A stretch of DNA of 64,000 nt from Chrysoperla carnea (taxonomy: Eukaryota; Arthropoda; Insecta; Neuroptera; Chrysopidae), in contig NC_058339.1 in NCBI RefSeq assembly GCF_905475395.1, forward strand, positions 80,690,520 through 80,754,519. Reading direction: 5' to 3'. Positions 1,023-51,221 of the stretch are shown piece after piece. The first letter of the stretch is position 1. Every line of letters starts with the position of its first letter. Under the pieces are notes generated by a model. It made no database searches. It worked only from the letters and a program-made list of their open reading frames with translations, and was not told where the DNA came from. The position numbers and the translations under genes are program-made.

Positions 1023-4000
1023 ATGGTAGCCATGGCGAGTATGGACGAGCATGAACGAAAAATTGTTATTGAATTTTGTCATTTATTAGAAAAATCTAAA
1101 CAATTATTTAATGGATTACGGTAAGTTTTTCCTACAAAAATTAATTTTTTTTCATTCAATAAAAAATTTTAACATATTGCAGAGATATAGGGATTTTTAT
1201 GTTTTTCCTAAATTTTCTTTCAAGTGTTTTTTTCGTTTAATATATTGGTATCACTTGTTTGTCACAGATAATATTGAATTTTATTATTATATTTTAAATA
1301 AATAATCCAAATTTTCAAAATTATTCAAGCAATTCTTTTATATTTTTTTTTTAAATTTATCAACTCCTAGAAAAATTGACAATTCCATATTTTTCAATTT
1401 TATAAATAAAAATGTAAAAAAATCTTATGACATCATATTCTAAAAATTTATGAAATGTTCTCTGTAAATTATGTTTTGTAAAAAATTTTTAACCGCCCCC
1501 ACAAAATAGAATATTTACCCTATATTAATAATGATGACTCATATTTGTATATGGGGTAAATGAAACCAAACCCTTCTGTCGTTTATAAATATTTTATAAG
1601 CGTCATCATATAGAGAGTCATTAAAAGTGATACTTAATTTATTCCCCCCTTTAAAATTTCCTACCAAAATAATAATTTATTGCTTAAGTCTAGTTTACAC
1701 TAATCTCAAGTGTGTATTATAGCTTAGAAAACGCATCAAAAATTTATGACATACGCTTTATAAATATTAAATAATAAATACTTGCTGTACAATTTTATCT
1801 GTAATTTTGAACAATCTAAAAATTTATATATTTTTTAAAACTATAAAACTCGATATGTTGAATAATATTTATTCAACATATACTTATGTGTTTACATTGT
1901 TTATACATTGACATGTAATAAATATTTGTTTACCTTAACAGATTCATAATGTAAACCAGTTATTTTAATCGAATAACAGTTTTAACTTATTATATGTTTA
2001 CATCGTTTACATTGACATAATTTTTAAGCGCTCGTTTACATTGACATAGTCTTAAAAGCACATTCTTTTGTTTACATTGACATTACTTTTAAATGTTTAC
2101 ATGTTTTGAAAAAAATAATTATCTGTATACATAATGTAAACTTTAATACATATGTTTACATTGTCTATGTTGACATCTTTTTATGTTAGGCTTATAAACA
2201 TACTTTCTATATTATAGTTTTAATTATACAATATCAACATTGTTTACTTTGATAATGCAGACGATTAATCCACAATATAAAATTTATTTTTGTCTACATT
2301 TGTTGAATATATTTTAGAAAACAGTAATTTTTTATAGCTTAGTTAACCATTATATGACTGATGTATGTACTAATCAAAAATAGTATAAATTTTGCTATAT
2401 TTTATATGTCTACATTCAACAATTCATCCTTTATCTTTAGTCTACGTTCAACATTTATCAAATTTTGTAATTAGTTAAATGTTACCTTTCAATTTAATAG
2501 AATTTTATTTTCTTGAACCAAAGTATAACTAAATATTATGTCTACATTTGTTTACTTTCATTCTTTTAATTAAAAGTTTTAATTTTTCTTCCATATAAGT
2601 ATATTTTAAATTCTATAATGCGGAATAAATATTTTTTTACATTTTACCATGTTTACAATCAAGATTTACATTGTAATACTTAAATGTATACAAATTTTCA
2701 GGATTCATTCAATAATATAAAATCGAAATCACTGTCAGTAGTTTCTTTGGAATTATTTGAATGTAAACAAATGTAGACATATTTTTATAAAATGAAGATT
2801 AAAATATTTTTTCTTTTTTTTTTTGATGTAACAGAGATTTACCACAATATGGTCACAAACAATGGCAAGCATATTTTGGGCGTACATTTGATATTTATAC
2901 AAAATTATGGAAATTTCAACAGCAACATAGGCAAACTTTAGATACAAAATATGGTTTGAAGCGATGGCAAATTGGTGAAATTGCATCGAAAATAGGACAA
3001 TTATACTATCATTATTAGTAAGTTATTTATTTTATATTTAAATATTTTTTTTGGACAACCCGAACCCCAATTTGGACGCGATTCAAGAATCCAACTTCAG
3101 CGTTGATTTTTCTGTTAGTGTCATTTACTATTAATATGACTTGACGAAATGTTTCCTCTATCCGATACGCCTGGCTAATCGAACTATAAATGGAAGACTT
3201 TACTTAAAAATATAGAATTAAAAAGCACTTTTTCTCAAATAAAAAACTTCTAAATTATTCGAAAAAACATATTTTATTTTTTTATCATTATTTTTGAAGC
3301 TTCTTTTAATAGTAAAGCCACAAAATAACTGAAAATTCATGTTAATCTAAGGTGCAAGTTTGTATTTAATTGAGGCTCAGCACACACTAAAACAGCAAAA
3401 CGTTGATAATCAAATATGGTTTTGTTAAACTAGAAAAACCTTTTAAAGTCTTAAGATATTTCGATCACGTAAAAATGAAAATTATACCATTTTATTTTAT
3501 CAATCAATCACCCGATATCAAAGCGCAATAAACTTGTTAATATACTGGTCAAATATTTTGTCTTTTTACAAAACAATTTGTTTAATCAATGCATAAGTAT
3601 AGGTTCCTATTACACTTATAGAGAAACAGTTTTAAGCTTTGGTTTACTCTAGGCCACATAAGGCTTGCTATATTTATTATAATTTACTATAATTGAAGAA
3701 AAATATTTAAAAATAAAACAAGTGTTCAAAAAAAATCTTAATAATCGAGGCTCGAATGTTTCATAAGATACGATTTTACTGTTACAAATAATTTCATAAA
3801 ATATAAATCATAATAATATTGTGATTTATATTTATAAAGAAGTTTAACTGTATATAAATGATGGTTGCGTTCGTTGGTTGTATAGCACATGATGTAGGCG
3901 TCATTTTGGCTACCTGCCACGTGTTATGAATGTTGCACTAATTTCTTGTGCCAAATATGATACTTACTTGCATACAATATGATATAATATACATATAATA

Positions 4001-16000: not shown

Positions 16001-17038
16001 ATATTCATTATTTTGCCTAGCGTCAGAGAGGGCTAGAGATATCGAAAAAAATTATTAGAAAAAGTTGCTTAGAATATTTTCTTATACGAATATTCCGATT
16101 TTAATGATAAAATTGGCATTTTAAATATTTTTATAATTCTGGTCTTTACTAAAAATTGTTACAAGTTTATTGAATATATAACCCTATTAAATTATCAAGT
16201 TGTGCAGTTTTTACATTCTATAGCATACTACTTATAAAACTAAAAAATAAACTTTTATAACTAGTGTGTTATGGAATGTAAAAACTGGACAAATTGATAA
16301 TTTAATAGTGTTATGTATTCAAATATTTCAATAATGTATACGATCAGTATCTTATTCGTCCAACCGTCAGGGTTATTTCTCGATTTCTGTAATTTTGAGT
16401 AAAACTTACTCTAGAAAATAATATTTATCCAAATCAGAAACAACAAAATTTTTCCGATATTCACAATTTTCTTGAAGTATAGTCTTTAAAAAATGTCATT
16501 GATTCCATTCTAACTAAGAACTATCCGGGTATATTATGGGTTAGGGCTAAGGACTTCGAACTATTTGCTCATTACTTAAAAAAGTTAACTTGCAATTAGT
16601 TTGACTACCATTCTCTGGATCCGCGAATGAAAAAGGTTATAAGTATGATTCCCCCACAGGTTTATATTTTACTGTCTCAAACATTAATTTCACTGAAGTT
16701 AACAAAATTGTCTCTAAATGATATTTCAGTTTCTGCAAATTCAATTTTCAATAAATTTCACTATGTTACATACGTAATTGTAATTTTTTCTAGAACCATC
16801 ATATCTACAATTCTTTGGTGATGATTTTCTACGTTTACTACTATTACGATATATATTCTGTGATGTAGTCTTACACTTACATAGAGGTTTTAAAGGTCGT
16901 CAATATCGTCCCCGTTGTCAACCACCACTACCTGAAGCTGAACTACTCGAACATCCTGCCTTACAACATTTAGTATTGGATTTAGCAGCACATTTAGAAG
17001 TACGCGGTCATTTTCTAGAGAATCATGAGCTAGACTGA
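1023..17038 (+). CDS. SCAI: SCAI (suppressor of cancer cell invasion) orthologue, 8 coding exons
   Basis: Exons by GT/AG junctions and phase: 1023-1120, 2835-3017, 8415-8513, 8848-9102, 10586-11010, 12244-12501, 12986-13156, 16794-17038 (stop TGA). They total 1,734 nt, or 577 residues, close to the roughly 600 of vertebrate SCAI. Recognisable family stretches include YYSRASKEDRSDLMVKKLRY, HKYLLYKPSLSQVLVFLASG, HIPRYFGQPLVTLMSP and the terminal LAAHLEVRGHFLENHELD. The ATG at 1023 is the first possible one because an in-frame TAA lies at 1017; Met codons at positions 4 and 7 are alternative starts. SCAI is known as a nuclear cofactor that restrains MRTF/SRF-driven transcription, and it has also been linked to 53BP1-associated DNA break repair. 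No membrane segment or signal peptide is seen. Introns 1 to 4 and 7 are long and repeat-laden. No frameshift is needed. Identity rests on remembered family sequence. Confidence 0.93.
1870..2665. repeat. Degenerate GTTTACATTGACAT array in SCAI intron 1
   Basis: The sequence repeats variants of TGTTTACATTGACAT at irregular spacing. TGTTTAC occurs at least nine times between about 1889 and 2656, with further CGTTTAC, TGTCTAC and reverse GTAAACA variants. The strand bias and shared downstream TTGACAT suggest a decayed tandem array. TGTTTAC is also the forkhead-factor core; whether that has meaning here is unknown. Confidence 0.6.
4335..4430. repeat. Fragment of dispersed insect-type repeat
   Basis: A stretch in SCAI intron 2 reading CACAAGTTTCAGGTCTCTAC followed by GTGCGTTGATCCGTCAGTCA resembles 3' regions of transposon-derived repeats common in insect genomes. 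The family is not identified. It is followed by a short TATATA run. Confidence 0.3.
6537..7115. mobile_element. Foldback MITE in SCAI intron 2
   Basis: The two halves are inverted copies of each other. The left end AGTCTGCATCAAATCCGGTA and the right end (7093-7115, ending TTTTATGCAGACT) pair, and the terminal arm is itself bounded by AGTCTGC and GCAGACT. Internal paired motifs include GACCTCGAGCGC (left) versus GCGCTCGAGGTGAC (right), and AAGGACTAATTTTTTGAT versus ATCAAAAAACTAGTCCTT. It has no ORF, so it is a non-autonomous element. No target-site duplication was found. It lies between SCAI coding exons 2 and 3. Confidence 0.75.
7605..8217. mobile_element. Composite palindromic MITE with AACCGACTTC ends
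   Basis: The left terminus AACCGACTTC (7605-7614) is followed by AAAAAAGGAGGAGGTTATCAA, a text familiar from widespread insect repeats. The right terminus GAAGTCGGTT (8194-8203) is its reverse complement. Inside, 7921-8217 is an almost complete palindrome: arms from about 7921 (TTAAAACATAAATCC) and ending about 8217 fold on a centre near 8065, with TTAGCCAAGC opposite CTTGGCTGAC. It is probably one palindromic copy beside or inside a truncated copy of the same family. It has no coding capacity. Confidence 0.7.
12741..12830 (-). repeat. tRNA-like SINE fragment in SCAI intron 6
   Basis: On the minus strand this reads as a tRNA-like body. An A-box-like CTCGGTTAGGTCC is followed by an anticodon-arm-like palindrome (TCCTAGA...TCTAGAGGA) and a B-box GAGTTCGAATC (12752-12762). 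The cloverleaf is incomplete, so it is a tRNA-derived SINE head or tRNA pseudogene rather than a functional tRNA. Confidence 0.5.
14188..14676. mobile_element. Nested palindromic MITE with a 56-bp tandem duplication
   Basis: Outer ends TTATTACCTCTGG (14189-14201) and CAGAGGTAATAA (14664-14675) are inverted. Within, a 56-bp unit starting CTGGAGAAAAACCG is repeated in tandem at 14197 and 14253 and is closed by CCAGAGGTAATAAA (about 14310), an inner inverted end. To the right, 14335-14630 is another hairpin centred near 14477 with arms of about 140 bp; ATGTCGACAT occurs in both arms and AAGCTAAACT faces AGTTTAGCTT. It lies in SCAI intron 7. Confidence 0.75.
16165..16330. repeat. Small palindromic element in SCAI intron 7
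   Basis: The arms TTGAATATATAACCCTATTA... and ...TAATAGTGTTATGTATTCAA pair around a centre near 16245, including GTTTTTACATTCTATA facing a matching TGGAATGTAAAAAC. It is about 165 bp long and has no ORF, so a decayed MITE is likely. Confidence 0.6.
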
Positions 17039-34579: not shown

Positions 34580-37500
34580 ATGGAATATGGTATATGGAAT
34601 TTTCATGGTGGTCTATGGCCAACCAATAATTTAACAACATTTAATGGTACAACATTAACGCCAATTACCGCAGCAACATTACCAACAAATACGGCGAGCT
34701 TTGCAATAACTGCTGGATTATTAAATCCAATAATTAGTGCAGCAGCTGCATGTAATTTAAATGTATTTGATACAACTGCAACTGATAATATAATCAATAG
34801 TAGTATTGATGAGCAAAATTCAAACGATACAAATAGTTCAAAATTTTCTGAGCAAAATAATAATAATAACGATAATGAGAATGAATATGATAATGAGGAT
34901 GATGATGATGATGATGAGGCAACTGATAATGAAGCAACTGATGAAAATGATGCAACTGGTGCAACTGATAATGTGAATTTAGTGAATTCAACAAATTCAT
35001 CGGAGCTTATTGCTAGTGATTTATCATCAAATTCATATGATGATAATGCTACCGATAATACGATTAAAATTAATAATAATAATCAAATACATGGGTTTTT
35101 TGCACAACAATACGCACCGGTTTATAATTTAGTTTTGGGACATTTTAATAATAATCCAACAACAATTAGTGTATCAGAAACGACGGATGAATCAAGTGAA
35201 GATGAAAATACTAATGCGGTTAGTATTAAACACCTTGTATTTCCCGATCTCATTGGGGAGCTGGCCAAAATTTTCTACACGTTAAAATTAAATTTTAATG
35301 GAATTGTTTTTTTAAGGTCATTGATTTTTAAACCATGTATATATGAATTAGGTATATAATATATATTTGATTTTTAACCCCCGAACTAAAAAAAAGGGGT
35401 TTGACCGCTATGTGTGTCTGTCTGTCTGTGTGTCTATCTGTGGCATCCTAGCGCCTCAACGGATAAACCGATTTTGATTTTTTTTTTCGTTTGAAAGGTA
35501 ACTCAATGGAGAGAGTTTTTAGATATGTTTCAAATGCGAGTTTACGGTTCCGTATCCGAAAAATTTGTCGGGGTTTTTTTAAATTTTGTAAATTTCACTT
35601 GTTACACCGTGTATATATGAAATATATTAAGGTATACTAAGTTTAGACCCAAGTTTGTAAAGCTTAAAAATATTGATGCTACGAACCAAATTTTGATTGT
35701 CCGTCTTAATGTCTGTCCTGATTATCCGTGAGAACGCAAAAAATTCTAAAGAATACTTTCAAAAATTTTCGAAGTTATTGAATGCCAAAACAAATGGTCG
35801 AAAGGCCATCATAATTTTGTTGGTTTTTTAAACTTATCTAATTTATCAAAAATAATGCAAGCAATAACATTTACACTTTTAATATACAAGATATTTCAAC
35901 AGTTAATTCAGTCAATTGTTTGTTTTCTCTTGTTTTGTCTGAGATATCGAAAATTGCTTATAGTTTATTTTTATAGAACTACCCATGCACAAAAATAAGG
36001 GACTAAGGCTCAAAAAATTTAATCTTAATAAAATAAATTTTACGAACAGCCTCTCATATAGAATTTATATTATTTGTAGATAAGTACCAATGAAAATTTT
36101 ACGTCCACTGATAATGATAATTATACAAAGCAAATATTAAATGATCAACAACCGTCCACAATTACAACATCAACAAATACAACAATTATCTCTGCTGCAA
36201 CGGTAGATAATCAACAATTATTAGCCATCAACAATAAAGACGAGATACACAAGTGTCCTGTTGCTGGATGTGAATATAAAACTGTACATATTGAAATATT
36301 AGAGCAACATGTTGCAACGCATAGTGAAAAAATGAGTAAAAGTAAAAAAATTACAAATATGCAACGAATTAGGTAAAATTATTAAAGTTGTTTTTTTTGT
36401 ACTTATTCTTCTTACGGTGCGTTAAGGACGTTACCAAATTCACGTTTTCTTAAGATCACCTTAAAATCGTTTATACATTTTTATGAATGCCCTTTCTAAT
36501 GCCCTTTCTCTATTATATTATAAATGCGAAAGTAAGGATGTTTATTTGTTTGTTTGTTTGTTACGCTTTCACGCTAAAACTAGCGAATGGTTTCTAATGA
36601 AATTGTACAGCAATATAGCTCATACTTCAGAATAACACATGAGCTATAATTTATAAAGATATACTAAAAAAAATAATGAAATAAAATTTGATCTGCCATT
36701 TTCTATCTTAAATTTTTACAGAAATCTGTAATTTATGGTTGAAAATGATGATTATAGACGGAGATCGAAAAACTATACATTTAATTTTCATCTAATTTTC
36801 CCAAGTTCTAACAGAATCCACCCTCAAAATTTGAAATGAAGTATAACTGCGTACATAAGTAAACACACCTTTTTTTCTAATTGATAATTTCTAAAGGTGC
36901 CCTTACACGGTCTACAATAATATCAAAAATACTGTAAATATTTCAAAATATAGACAATATTGTTGAGCATGTTAAGGTGGCGCAAAAACGTTAGAAATTG
37001 TATCATATTCTTTAATATTAGCTCATGTTTTCAAATTTTTTAACACCCAAACCAAAAAAAGGGGTGTTAAACTCCAAAAATTTGTCGGGGTTTTTTTTAA
37101 TATTGTAATATTTGCTTGTTTTAGATATGAGCGTGAAGAATACCATTGTTCAATGTGTACGTATACCTGTACGACCGAAAAAGCATATTTACGTCATTTA
37201 CGGATGCATTCTTTAGGCGAAACACCACAAGGTCGTCTATCATGTGCTGTATGTGGACGTGATCGAATTGGTGAAACAGCCTTGGCCAAACATATGAGAA
37301 AACATCGTGATGATCGATTTTTTTGTTGTGATATTTGTGTTTTTCGTACGGTACAATTGAAAAAGGTAAGTTTACAAGAAGATCGGAGCGTCGCGGCCAA
37401 TGGGCCAAATGGGGACAAACAAAGTGAAACGTGATACAAAGTAGGAATTATGAGTAAAAATAATTTAAAGGGCTCTGGTTGCTAAAAAAGTAAAAAAAAA

Positions 37501-48858: not shown

Positions 48859-49193
48859 ACTTATAAACTTATACAATGTGTGTTTGTACCATCTAGGCAT
48901 ACCAATATCATTAGTATGACAGAATACATGCCTTAAGCCATGCATCTAAGTGAGAGGTATCATATATATATATATATGTGTTAAGCATTTAGTTGCCTCT
49001 ACCGATACGATACGACAGATCTTCTATTGTGTGCATGAACAGAGTGGAAGTTTTGTTGCATACAAATATTATTAATTGATATACACATATATATAAAATC
49101 TCTCACTTAGATGCATGGCTTAAGGCATGCATTCTGTCTTACTAATATTGGTTTACCTAGATGGTACAAGCACACATTGTATTATTTATAACT
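48859..49193. mobile_element. Foldback MITE, about 335 bp
   Basis: Arms of about 100 bp are inverted: ACAATGTGTG, TACCATCTAGG and GCCTTAAGCCATGCATCTAA on the left face TTAGATGCATGGCTTAAGGC, CCTAGATGGTA and CACACATTGT on the right. A central AT-rich loop holds (TA)n runs. No ORF is present. Confidence 0.75.
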
Positions 49194-49734: not shown

Positions 49735-51221
49735 TTATTCTGTTTTAGCAGGACGTTGTTTCTTAGGTTTAGCGGGTTTTTGTGACCGAAGAACTGCACT
49801 AGCTCTACGTAAAGCAAGCTGAAAAAAAAAATACAATTAACAAAAAATATTTCTTAATTATTCAATAAAATTATTATTTTTTTTAATCAGATAAAATGGT
49901 GGGTGATGAGTTAATGTCTTCATTTAAAACATCTAGACATAAAAAATACATCATTTTTTACTTTTTCCTAGTTGTATTTAATTTTTTAAACGCGAAATGG
50001 TCGCCTTACATTTAAGGCCAGATCAAAAATTTCTGGGGACACAATATTTCAAATGCAAACGTTTCTGAAATCGTTGTTTTCGTGTGGAGAAATTTAATTC
50101 TATGATTCTGACGAATGAAAATTGCATAATATTTACACGTTCAGGGTTTCGAATACCCATAAATTTACACGTTTACAACCCGAACTTGGTCCTAGCTAAT
50201 TCTAAACACAACTAAATTTTTAATTTTACGAATAATACTTACTTTAGCCAAGTCTCGTCGGTAACTGTTCTTCTTTAATAAACGTTTAAGTTTATATAAT
50301 GATCGTCGTGGACCTGCGTTCATTGTTCTTCGTACTAAAGATCTACCTGGCTTGTGCTGCAATAAAACAAAACAAAAAACATATTTTTAGGGCAAAATTT
50401 CCTTTTTAAAAATAATGAAATATTTTTAACACATTTAAGATCAGAAAAAAGTGGGTGATGAGTTAATGTCTTCATTTGAAAACATCCAGAAGCAAAAGAA
50501 CATCATTTGTGCAGTATTTGAATGAAAGTTTTCCAAAATTCACAAATTTCATTTACGTTTAGCAAAATAATTATTTTATTACATTTAAAAATAAACATCG
50601 AAATATTACAAAACAGTTAAAATAAAATTTGGAAAACATTCATCCTTCAGTACATGAATAATTTGATAAATTCACGCGAATTCAAATTTTTTACTCGATT
50701 TGGGTCCACGTGATTTTAAAGAAATTAAAACTATGAACTTACAATTTTCTTTGCACGTTTATATACAACAGTGAAACCTTTTTTGTCTGGAGCTGGTACA
50801 ACTCCAACAGTTTTTCTGTGGATTAAACCATTATAACGGAATGAACTTAAATTACAGAGGTTGTTGGGTTCCTGAAACAAATATAACAACACTTTTTAAA
50901 TTTGAATTTTAAACACATTCGATTTTGAGGGGTTTATTTTTAGCATCAGAATTTGCAGATTGTCTTCACAACCATTCGGAGATCTTGGTAGTAATTTAAC
51001 AACATCATTTAAATAAATTAAATAGGGTGAATATTCGTCGTTAGATATAAAAATTCGACTTCTGCGAATTTTACTCAATCCAGAATAAATTGAATTATTC
51101 ACCCTAATTGGTATAAAATATTTGAAACACTCACCGTACTGAATGGCTTGCTAATGTTCCTTTTTTTCAATAAAAAGGCATTATTGTTACGAATTATCAT
51201 CCAACTTAAATGGGCCGACAT
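49735..51221 (-). CDS. RpL28: 60S ribosomal protein L28 (eL28), 4 coding exons
   Basis: Coding exons on the minus strand: 51221-51135, 50871-50743, 50356-50243, 49818-49735 (TAA), all phase 0. They give 414 nt or 137 residues, the usual eL28 length. The start is [20 protein letters not shown] and the middle reads [20 protein letters not shown]; the third coding exon encodes [20 protein letters not shown], and the basic tail ends [11 protein letters not shown]. eL28 is a structural protein of the large ribosomal subunit. A leader exon (51547-51510) splices to 51227, just before the ATG. Each of the three introns within the coding region carries one sense-strand C/D snoRNA-like unit, a host-gene arrangement common for ribosomal protein genes. 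No damage is seen. Confidence 0.97.
49884..49958 (-). ncRNA. C/D-box snoRNA candidate 'a' in RpL28 intron 3
   Basis: On the sense strand of the host gene: C box ATGATGT (49954-49948), C'-like ATGAAGA, and D box CTGA (49890-49887), about 75 nt in all. A block of about 34 nt (roughly 49937-49903), from GATGTTTT through ATGAAGACATTAACTCATCA to CCCAC, is shared with the unit in intron 2, while the rest of the two introns differs. This preserved block argues for function. Terminal stem pairing is poor, and the guide target was not recognised. Confidence 0.68.
50437..50511 (-). ncRNA. C/D-box snoRNA candidate 'b' in RpL28 intron 2
   Basis: Paralogue of the unit in intron 3: C box ATGATGT (50506-50500), a D'-like CTGG, C'-like ATGAAGA, and D box CTGA (50444-50441). 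The shared block differs from the other copy by about two positions (one inserted base, one substitution). A short CACA/TGTG pairing outside the boxes could form the terminal stem. Confidence 0.7.
50942..51012 (-). ncRNA. C/D-box snoRNA candidate 'c' in RpL28 intron 1, probable 28S rRNA guide
   Basis: C box ATGATGT (51008-51002), D'-like CCGA (50979-50976), C'-like GTGAAGA, and D box CTGA (50949-50946). Upstream of D' the guide TTACTACCAAGATCTC is complementary to the conserved eukaryotic large-subunit rRNA text GAGATCTTGGTGGTAGTAG: 11 consecutive Watson-Crick pairs, then a G-U, three more pairs and another G-U. The rRNA text is from memory. Counting five from D' points to the C of AGATC as the predicted 2'-O-methylation site. 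Confidence 0.75.

Follow-up and report, generated by a model that had tools for sequence, protein, structure and literature searches.

The three coding-region introns of the RpL28 gene in the window, the whole 64-kb stretch of Chrysoperla carnea DNA analyzed here, very probably each carry a box C/D snoRNA gene. Judging from the sequences, the unit in intron 1 (unit 1) would guide methylation of the 28S rRNA nucleotide equivalent to human C2338, and the units in introns 2 and 3 (units 2 and 3) are paralogues that a duplication between the neighboring introns would have produced. This host-gene snoRNA reading, which the initial annotation had put forward, is supported by the box anatomy of the units, their strand, their position within introns, the preserved paralogy between unit 2 and unit 3, and the 16-nt guide of unit 1 to 28S. 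We expect that, once RpL28 is spliced, exonucleases trim the excised introns down to the units, which would then bind the standard C/D proteins. Introns of ribosomal-protein genes are the usual homes of snoRNAs, and in this respect the RpL28 units are mostly ordinary. The kind is already known, and what is new is these members and a possible hand-over of a guide from one snoRNA to another. In Drosophila, 27 ribosomal-protein genes are reported as snoRNA hosts (PMC2246290). Among the papers listed in searches of the open-licence literature, none points by title or the start of its abstract to a snoRNA in insect RpL28, and searching full-text literature for the guide words as letters returned no snoRNA paper by title.

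RpL28 is encoded on the minus strand, and the predicted product is recognized by Pfam Ribosomal_L28e (E 2e-32). The coding region (49735..51221) is made up of exons at 51221-51135, 50871-50743, 50356-50243, and 49818-49735, separated by intron 1 (51134-50872), intron 2 (50742-50357), and intron 3 (50242-49819). A fourth intron is located in the 5' UTR (51509-51228) and contains no C/D unit by our box test. All four introns have GT..AG ends.

A single box C/D unit is present in each of the three coding introns, in sense orientation (minus strand), as the initial annotation had described, with a C box (RUGAUGA-like) and a CUGA D box located 55-90 nt apart on the transcribed strand. The boxes were found as claimed: the C box reads ATGATGT and the D box is an exact CTGA in all three units, and the C' box, given earlier as RTGAAGA, is GTGAAGA in unit 1 and ATGAAGA in units 2 and 3 (at most one mismatch in 3/3). 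Unit 1 extends from C to D over 50946..51008, with C at 51008-51002, D' (CCGA) at 50979-50976, C' at 50969-50963, and D at 50949-50946. Unit 2 occupies 50441..50506, with C at 50506-50500, a D'-like CTGG at 50489-50486, C' at 50475-50469, and D at 50444-50441, and unit 3 occupies 49887..49954, with C at 49954-49948, a D'-like CTAG at 49936-49933, C' at 49923-49917, and D at 49890-49887. All of these are minus-strand features; the positions of D' and C' were counted by hand, and the D' boxes, assigned by eye, are degenerate. Measured from C to D, the units are 63, 66, and 68 nt long (units 1 to 3), and the lengths near 70-75 nt that had been proposed are reached only if short ends are added. 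In single-sequence folds, a closing stem of 5 pairs formed in one of the three units, unit 2. Mammalian intronic C/D snoRNAs lie about 70-80 nt from the 3' splice site, and the corresponding distances from the D box in RpL28 are close to this (74 nt in unit 1, 84 nt in unit 2, and 68 nt in unit 3).

We compared the guide regions with rRNA sequences from three loci: L017 supplied 18S and 5.8S, L008 the 5' part of 28S, and L013 its 3' part. The 28S in L008 belongs to an interrupted rDNA copy that is cut off by an insertion, and 28S position numbers follow this copy. In L008 (2739-6156), the 28S-like sequence ends right after TGTCCCTATCTACT, with what appears by eye to be a zinc-knuckle-like coding stretch behind it; we take this end point to be the R1 insertion site. 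In L013, unrelated sequence stands ahead of the same 28S point.

The D' guide of unit 1, ATTACTACCAAGATCT (50980..50995, minus strand), forms 16 pairs, two of them G-U, with 28S 1932-1947, and the fifth nucleotide upstream of the D' box CCGA faces C1936. Guides were sought in rRNA only, as at least 10 nt of pairing before D or D' with the modified nucleotide at position 5, and under this rule none of 300 shuffled guides did as well. Without the position-5 rule, 0 of 120 shuffles were as good. The D guide of unit 1 gave no convincing rRNA target, since 113 of 300 shuffles equaled it. Human SNORD24 (U24), whose C box is AUGAUGU (PMC3372990), guides 28S C2338 and C2352, which are 14 nt apart (PMC8162545, PMC3372990). 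The same 14 nt separate C1936 from C1950, the nucleotide facing the D' guide of a probable U24 in RpL7A described below. We therefore infer that C1936 corresponds to human C2338, and the computed pairing predicts that unit 1 directs 2'-O-methylation at this nucleotide. The initial annotation could not match these units to any named locus; for unit 1 a named function is now available, at the SNORD24 site C2338, whereas units 2 and 3 are still orphans.

Unit 1 shares with SNORD24 (RF00069) the C box AUGAUGU, the guide CCAAGATC with its fifth nucleotide facing the C2338 equivalent, and a host intron in a ribosomal-protein gene. It differs in that the guide precedes D' and not D, in having no C2352 guide, and in being hosted by RpL28 and not RpL7A. 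We considered unit 1 as a member of the SNORD24 family and rejected this, as it has the C2338 guide only and the SNORD24 model did not match it in a permissive Rfam search of the gene with E up to 10. Unit 1 is present once in the genome. An exact-match search of the accessible stretches of the genome located ACCAAGATC with a CTGA no more than 2 nt behind it at 6 places, and none of the six lies in a C/D unit. The U24-type guide pattern is not enriched in the genome, with these 6 matches against 21 for the backward control.

The probable U24 is located in an intron of RpL7A (L020, about 1501-1572, minus strand), where a SNORD24 match, host exons, and a kept guide coincide. Beside the RpL7A exons the match reaches 29.4 bits, where the cut-off is 41; its E is 0.0058 when 451 bases are searched and 1.68 genome-wide, where it is the second of five matches. 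The top genome match (L019, 33.3 bits) lacks both guide words throughout its 3 kb. With E up to 10, the SNORD24 search also gives matches in 11 of 14 prokaryotic control genomes. Human U24 resides in the second intron of RPL7A (PMC3412847). The D' guide of the RpL7A copy faces 28S C1950, a pairing that on its own was equaled by 27 of 300 shuffles. We regard this element as a probable U24 because its host gene and its kept guide agree, the score alone being weak.

When the RpL7A copy is aligned with the SNORD24 model, ACCACCAAAAUUGCUU stands at the D-guide position where ACCACCAAGAUCgCUGA is expected, and the D box is aligned to a stretch that is not CTGA. Both the second guide and the D box are thus altered, and they look decayed; the copy also has no C' box at one mismatch. 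Given these alterations and the presence of a guide to this site in unit 1, unit 1 appears to cover the lost site. Whether the role of the second U24 guide passed to unit 1, with the RpL7A copy keeping only the C2352 guide, is in our judgment evenly balanced. It is rather unlikely, although a serious alternative, that the units are real snoRNAs and no hand-over took place, with unit 1 being one of several guides or the RpL7A U24 still working at C2338. D boxes and guides can be degenerate and redundant guides are common, which would suit the absence of a hand-over, as would the retention in the RpL7A copy of CTACCACCAA, 10 nt complementary to 28S TTGGTGGTAG, beside the old D-box position. However, the next CTGA begins 10 nt past CTACCACCAA, and the best position-5 duplex of the second guide lies elsewhere (11 pairs, score 10.8). 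The lack of a C/D unit around all six exact alternative guides in the genome also argues against further guides.

Should the hand-over to unit 1 be true, it would show that selection maintains the methylation site itself, whichever snoRNA serves it. Unit 1 and U24 offer a testable case of this, with two snoRNAs and one 28S nucleotide. Sponges are reported to show both the copying of a snoRNA into a neighboring intron and the absence of one U24 guide (PMC3412847). Sponge SNORD24 in RPL5 resembles our case in that a U24 function is found in another host and just one of the two guides is conserved in all four sponges (PMC3412847). The sponge case differs in that U24 itself lies in another gene, whereas here RpL7A still hosts the probable U24 and the second guide would be carried by a different snoRNA. 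The main text of a preprint on Drosophila methylation (PMC13228274) contains neither of the words U24 and RpL7A.

Alignment of units 2 and 3 revealed 86% identity over 72 nt (E 3e-18), running from the C box to the D box. Outside the units, introns 2 and 3 share short AT-rich matches only (E 0.019 or worse). An identical 27-nt stretch, AAATGAAGACATTAACTCATCACCCAC, comprises the C' box and the element CATTAACTCATCACCCAC, which lies at 50451..50468 in unit 2 and at 49899..49916 in unit 3 (minus strand; located by genome search and alignment). The stretches preceding the D'-like boxes have diverged between the two units, and unit 1 has little in common with either beyond the C box. On this sequence evidence, units 2 and 3 are paralogues in neighboring introns, and they would have arisen by duplication between these introns. 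The earlier description of three independent occurrences does not hold: unit 2 and unit 3 are copies of the same sequence, and the three units therefore represent two independent families with two origins. In the genome search, units 2 and 3 matched each other and 12 further places with 3 mismatches to their shared 20-mer, compared with 8 such places for the backward control; 8 of the 12 were inspected and contain no C/D unit. The shared 20-mer has no exact match among the viral contigs searched.

The candidate pairing stretch of units 2 and 3 is TCATCACCCAC. Under the position-5 rule, unit 2 could face 28S A316 with 11 pairs, although 13 of 300 shuffles were as good, and its D' guide has no convincing rRNA target (77 of 300 shuffles as good). 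The best rRNA pairing of the unit 3 D guide is 9 pairs, equaled by 158 of 300 shuffles. The 28S sequence AAGTGGGTGGT was rejected as a common target, as it fits unit 2 (the same 13 of 300 shuffles) and not unit 3. With no match for unit 3 where unit 2 fits, the two units have no common methylation target in rRNA by this rule.

One explanation would be that units 2 and 3 have no target at all, being snoRNA copies that are decaying or selfish. The lack of a D-guide target common to both by the standard rule is consistent with this, as is the divergence of the sequence ahead of the D'-like boxes. However, the 27 nt of AAATGAAGACATTAACTCATCACCCAC are identical while the remainder of the introns cannot be aligned beyond short AT-rich matches, which points to selection on the C' box and the element that follows it, with conservation here judged from one paralogous pair only. 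We consider this explanation unlikely. As functional snoRNAs, units 2 and 3 would be an orphan pair that extends the list of snoRNAs lacking a known target.

A distant relationship to the orphan SNORD83 is more doubtful still. SNORD83, reported from sponges and human, is an orphan for which no target is known; two introns of one ribosomal-protein gene contain it in human and some sponges, the human ones being introns five and seven of RPL3 (PMC3412847). Units 2 and 3 resemble SNORD83A/B (RF00137) in being an orphan pair in the introns of one ribosomal-protein gene with AUCACCC before box D, and the SNORD83 model aligns over unit 3 with this word in common. They differ in their host gene and in scoring far below the gathering score of 35 bits (unit 3 reaches 18.8 bits and unit 2 only 12.1), so that membership in the family fails. 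Several other C/D families outscore SNORD83 on unit 2. A genome search with E up to 10, in which 60 first-pass candidates were scored, gave no SNORD83 match, at units 2 and 3 or elsewhere, and matches in 8 of 14 prokaryotic control genomes indicate that this level is noise.

The shared element is complementary to 18S 1426-1437, GGTGGGTGGTGG, over 12 nt, with two G-U pairs in unit 3 and three in unit 2. This match was equaled by 7 of 120 shuffles of the shared 20-mer and by none of 120 for the 25-mer of unit 3. We take 18S 1426-1437 to lie in helix 34, beside the acetylated C that is served by snR4 in yeast. The duplex ends 5 nt (unit 2, counting the last G-U) or 7 nt (unit 3) before box D, and for methylation a gap to box D of at most 2 is tolerated (PMC5464676). 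The methylation rule therefore does not apply to this duplex, and we rejected 18S 1426-1437 as a methylation target of units 2 and 3. An acetylation guide of the snR4 type, with two arms flanking the acetylated C, was rejected as well. Units 2 and 3 have one arm only; against the 25 nt that lie across the acetylated C, no run is longer than 7, a length that 416 and 407 of 500 shuffles reach. They are like yeast snR4 in having an element for 18S helix 34, by our presumed placement, that is not adjacent to box D, and unlike it in having no second arm past the acetylated C and in being much shorter RNAs. It is highly improbable that units 2 and 3 act on 18S helix 34 by the acetylated C through an element 5-7 nt off box D, in a role other than methylation. 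If they did, they would be an animal counterpart of the snR4 guide or an accessory to it.

We tested how often dinucleotide-shuffled introns carry the same boxes. When C, C', and D all had to be present, 3, 0, and 0 of 4,000 shuffles of introns 1, 2, and 3 passed, upholding the claim that the units are hard to explain by chance; this box test was devised after the units had been seen, and the counts are therefore flattering to them. Chance C/D-like matches in AT-rich introns are accordingly a very remote explanation, for although C and D alone pass in 40, 50, and 14 of 4,000 shuffles, adding C' nearly abolishes this, unit 1 carries a 16-nt guide to 28S, and units 2 and 3 are conserved copies.

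Across the window, the full test returned no minus-strand unit besides the three in RpL28. The plus strand gave 5 overlapping matches, all from one GATGAT repeat (34899-34968) that mimics C boxes, and dropping the C' requirement added 2 further plus-strand matches at 16860. A covariance or box search had been proposed in the initial annotation. The box test recovers the three units, and the Rfam search of the whole 64-kb window yields no family at gathering score. A SNORD36 match to unit 3 in the permissive Rfam search (19.6 bits) was deemed to be at chance level, as was the SNORD83 match to this unit.

Two inverted repeats were observed near the units. Just upstream of unit 1 is a 90-nt element (51020-51109) with 14-nt inverted ends, AGGGTGAATA and TATTCACCCT. 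An 85-nt query from this element matched nothing in the genome but itself, and because it is single-copy we dropped the idea that a mobile element carries the unit 1 snoRNA. Downstream of RpL28, a long interrupted inverted repeat spans 48866-49187. Its arms at 48910-48984 and 49072-49146 are 75 nt long and 87% complementary, and a second pair of arms (48866-48913 and 49140-49187) reaches 85%. This repeat resembles a foldback element or a short inverted-repeat element.
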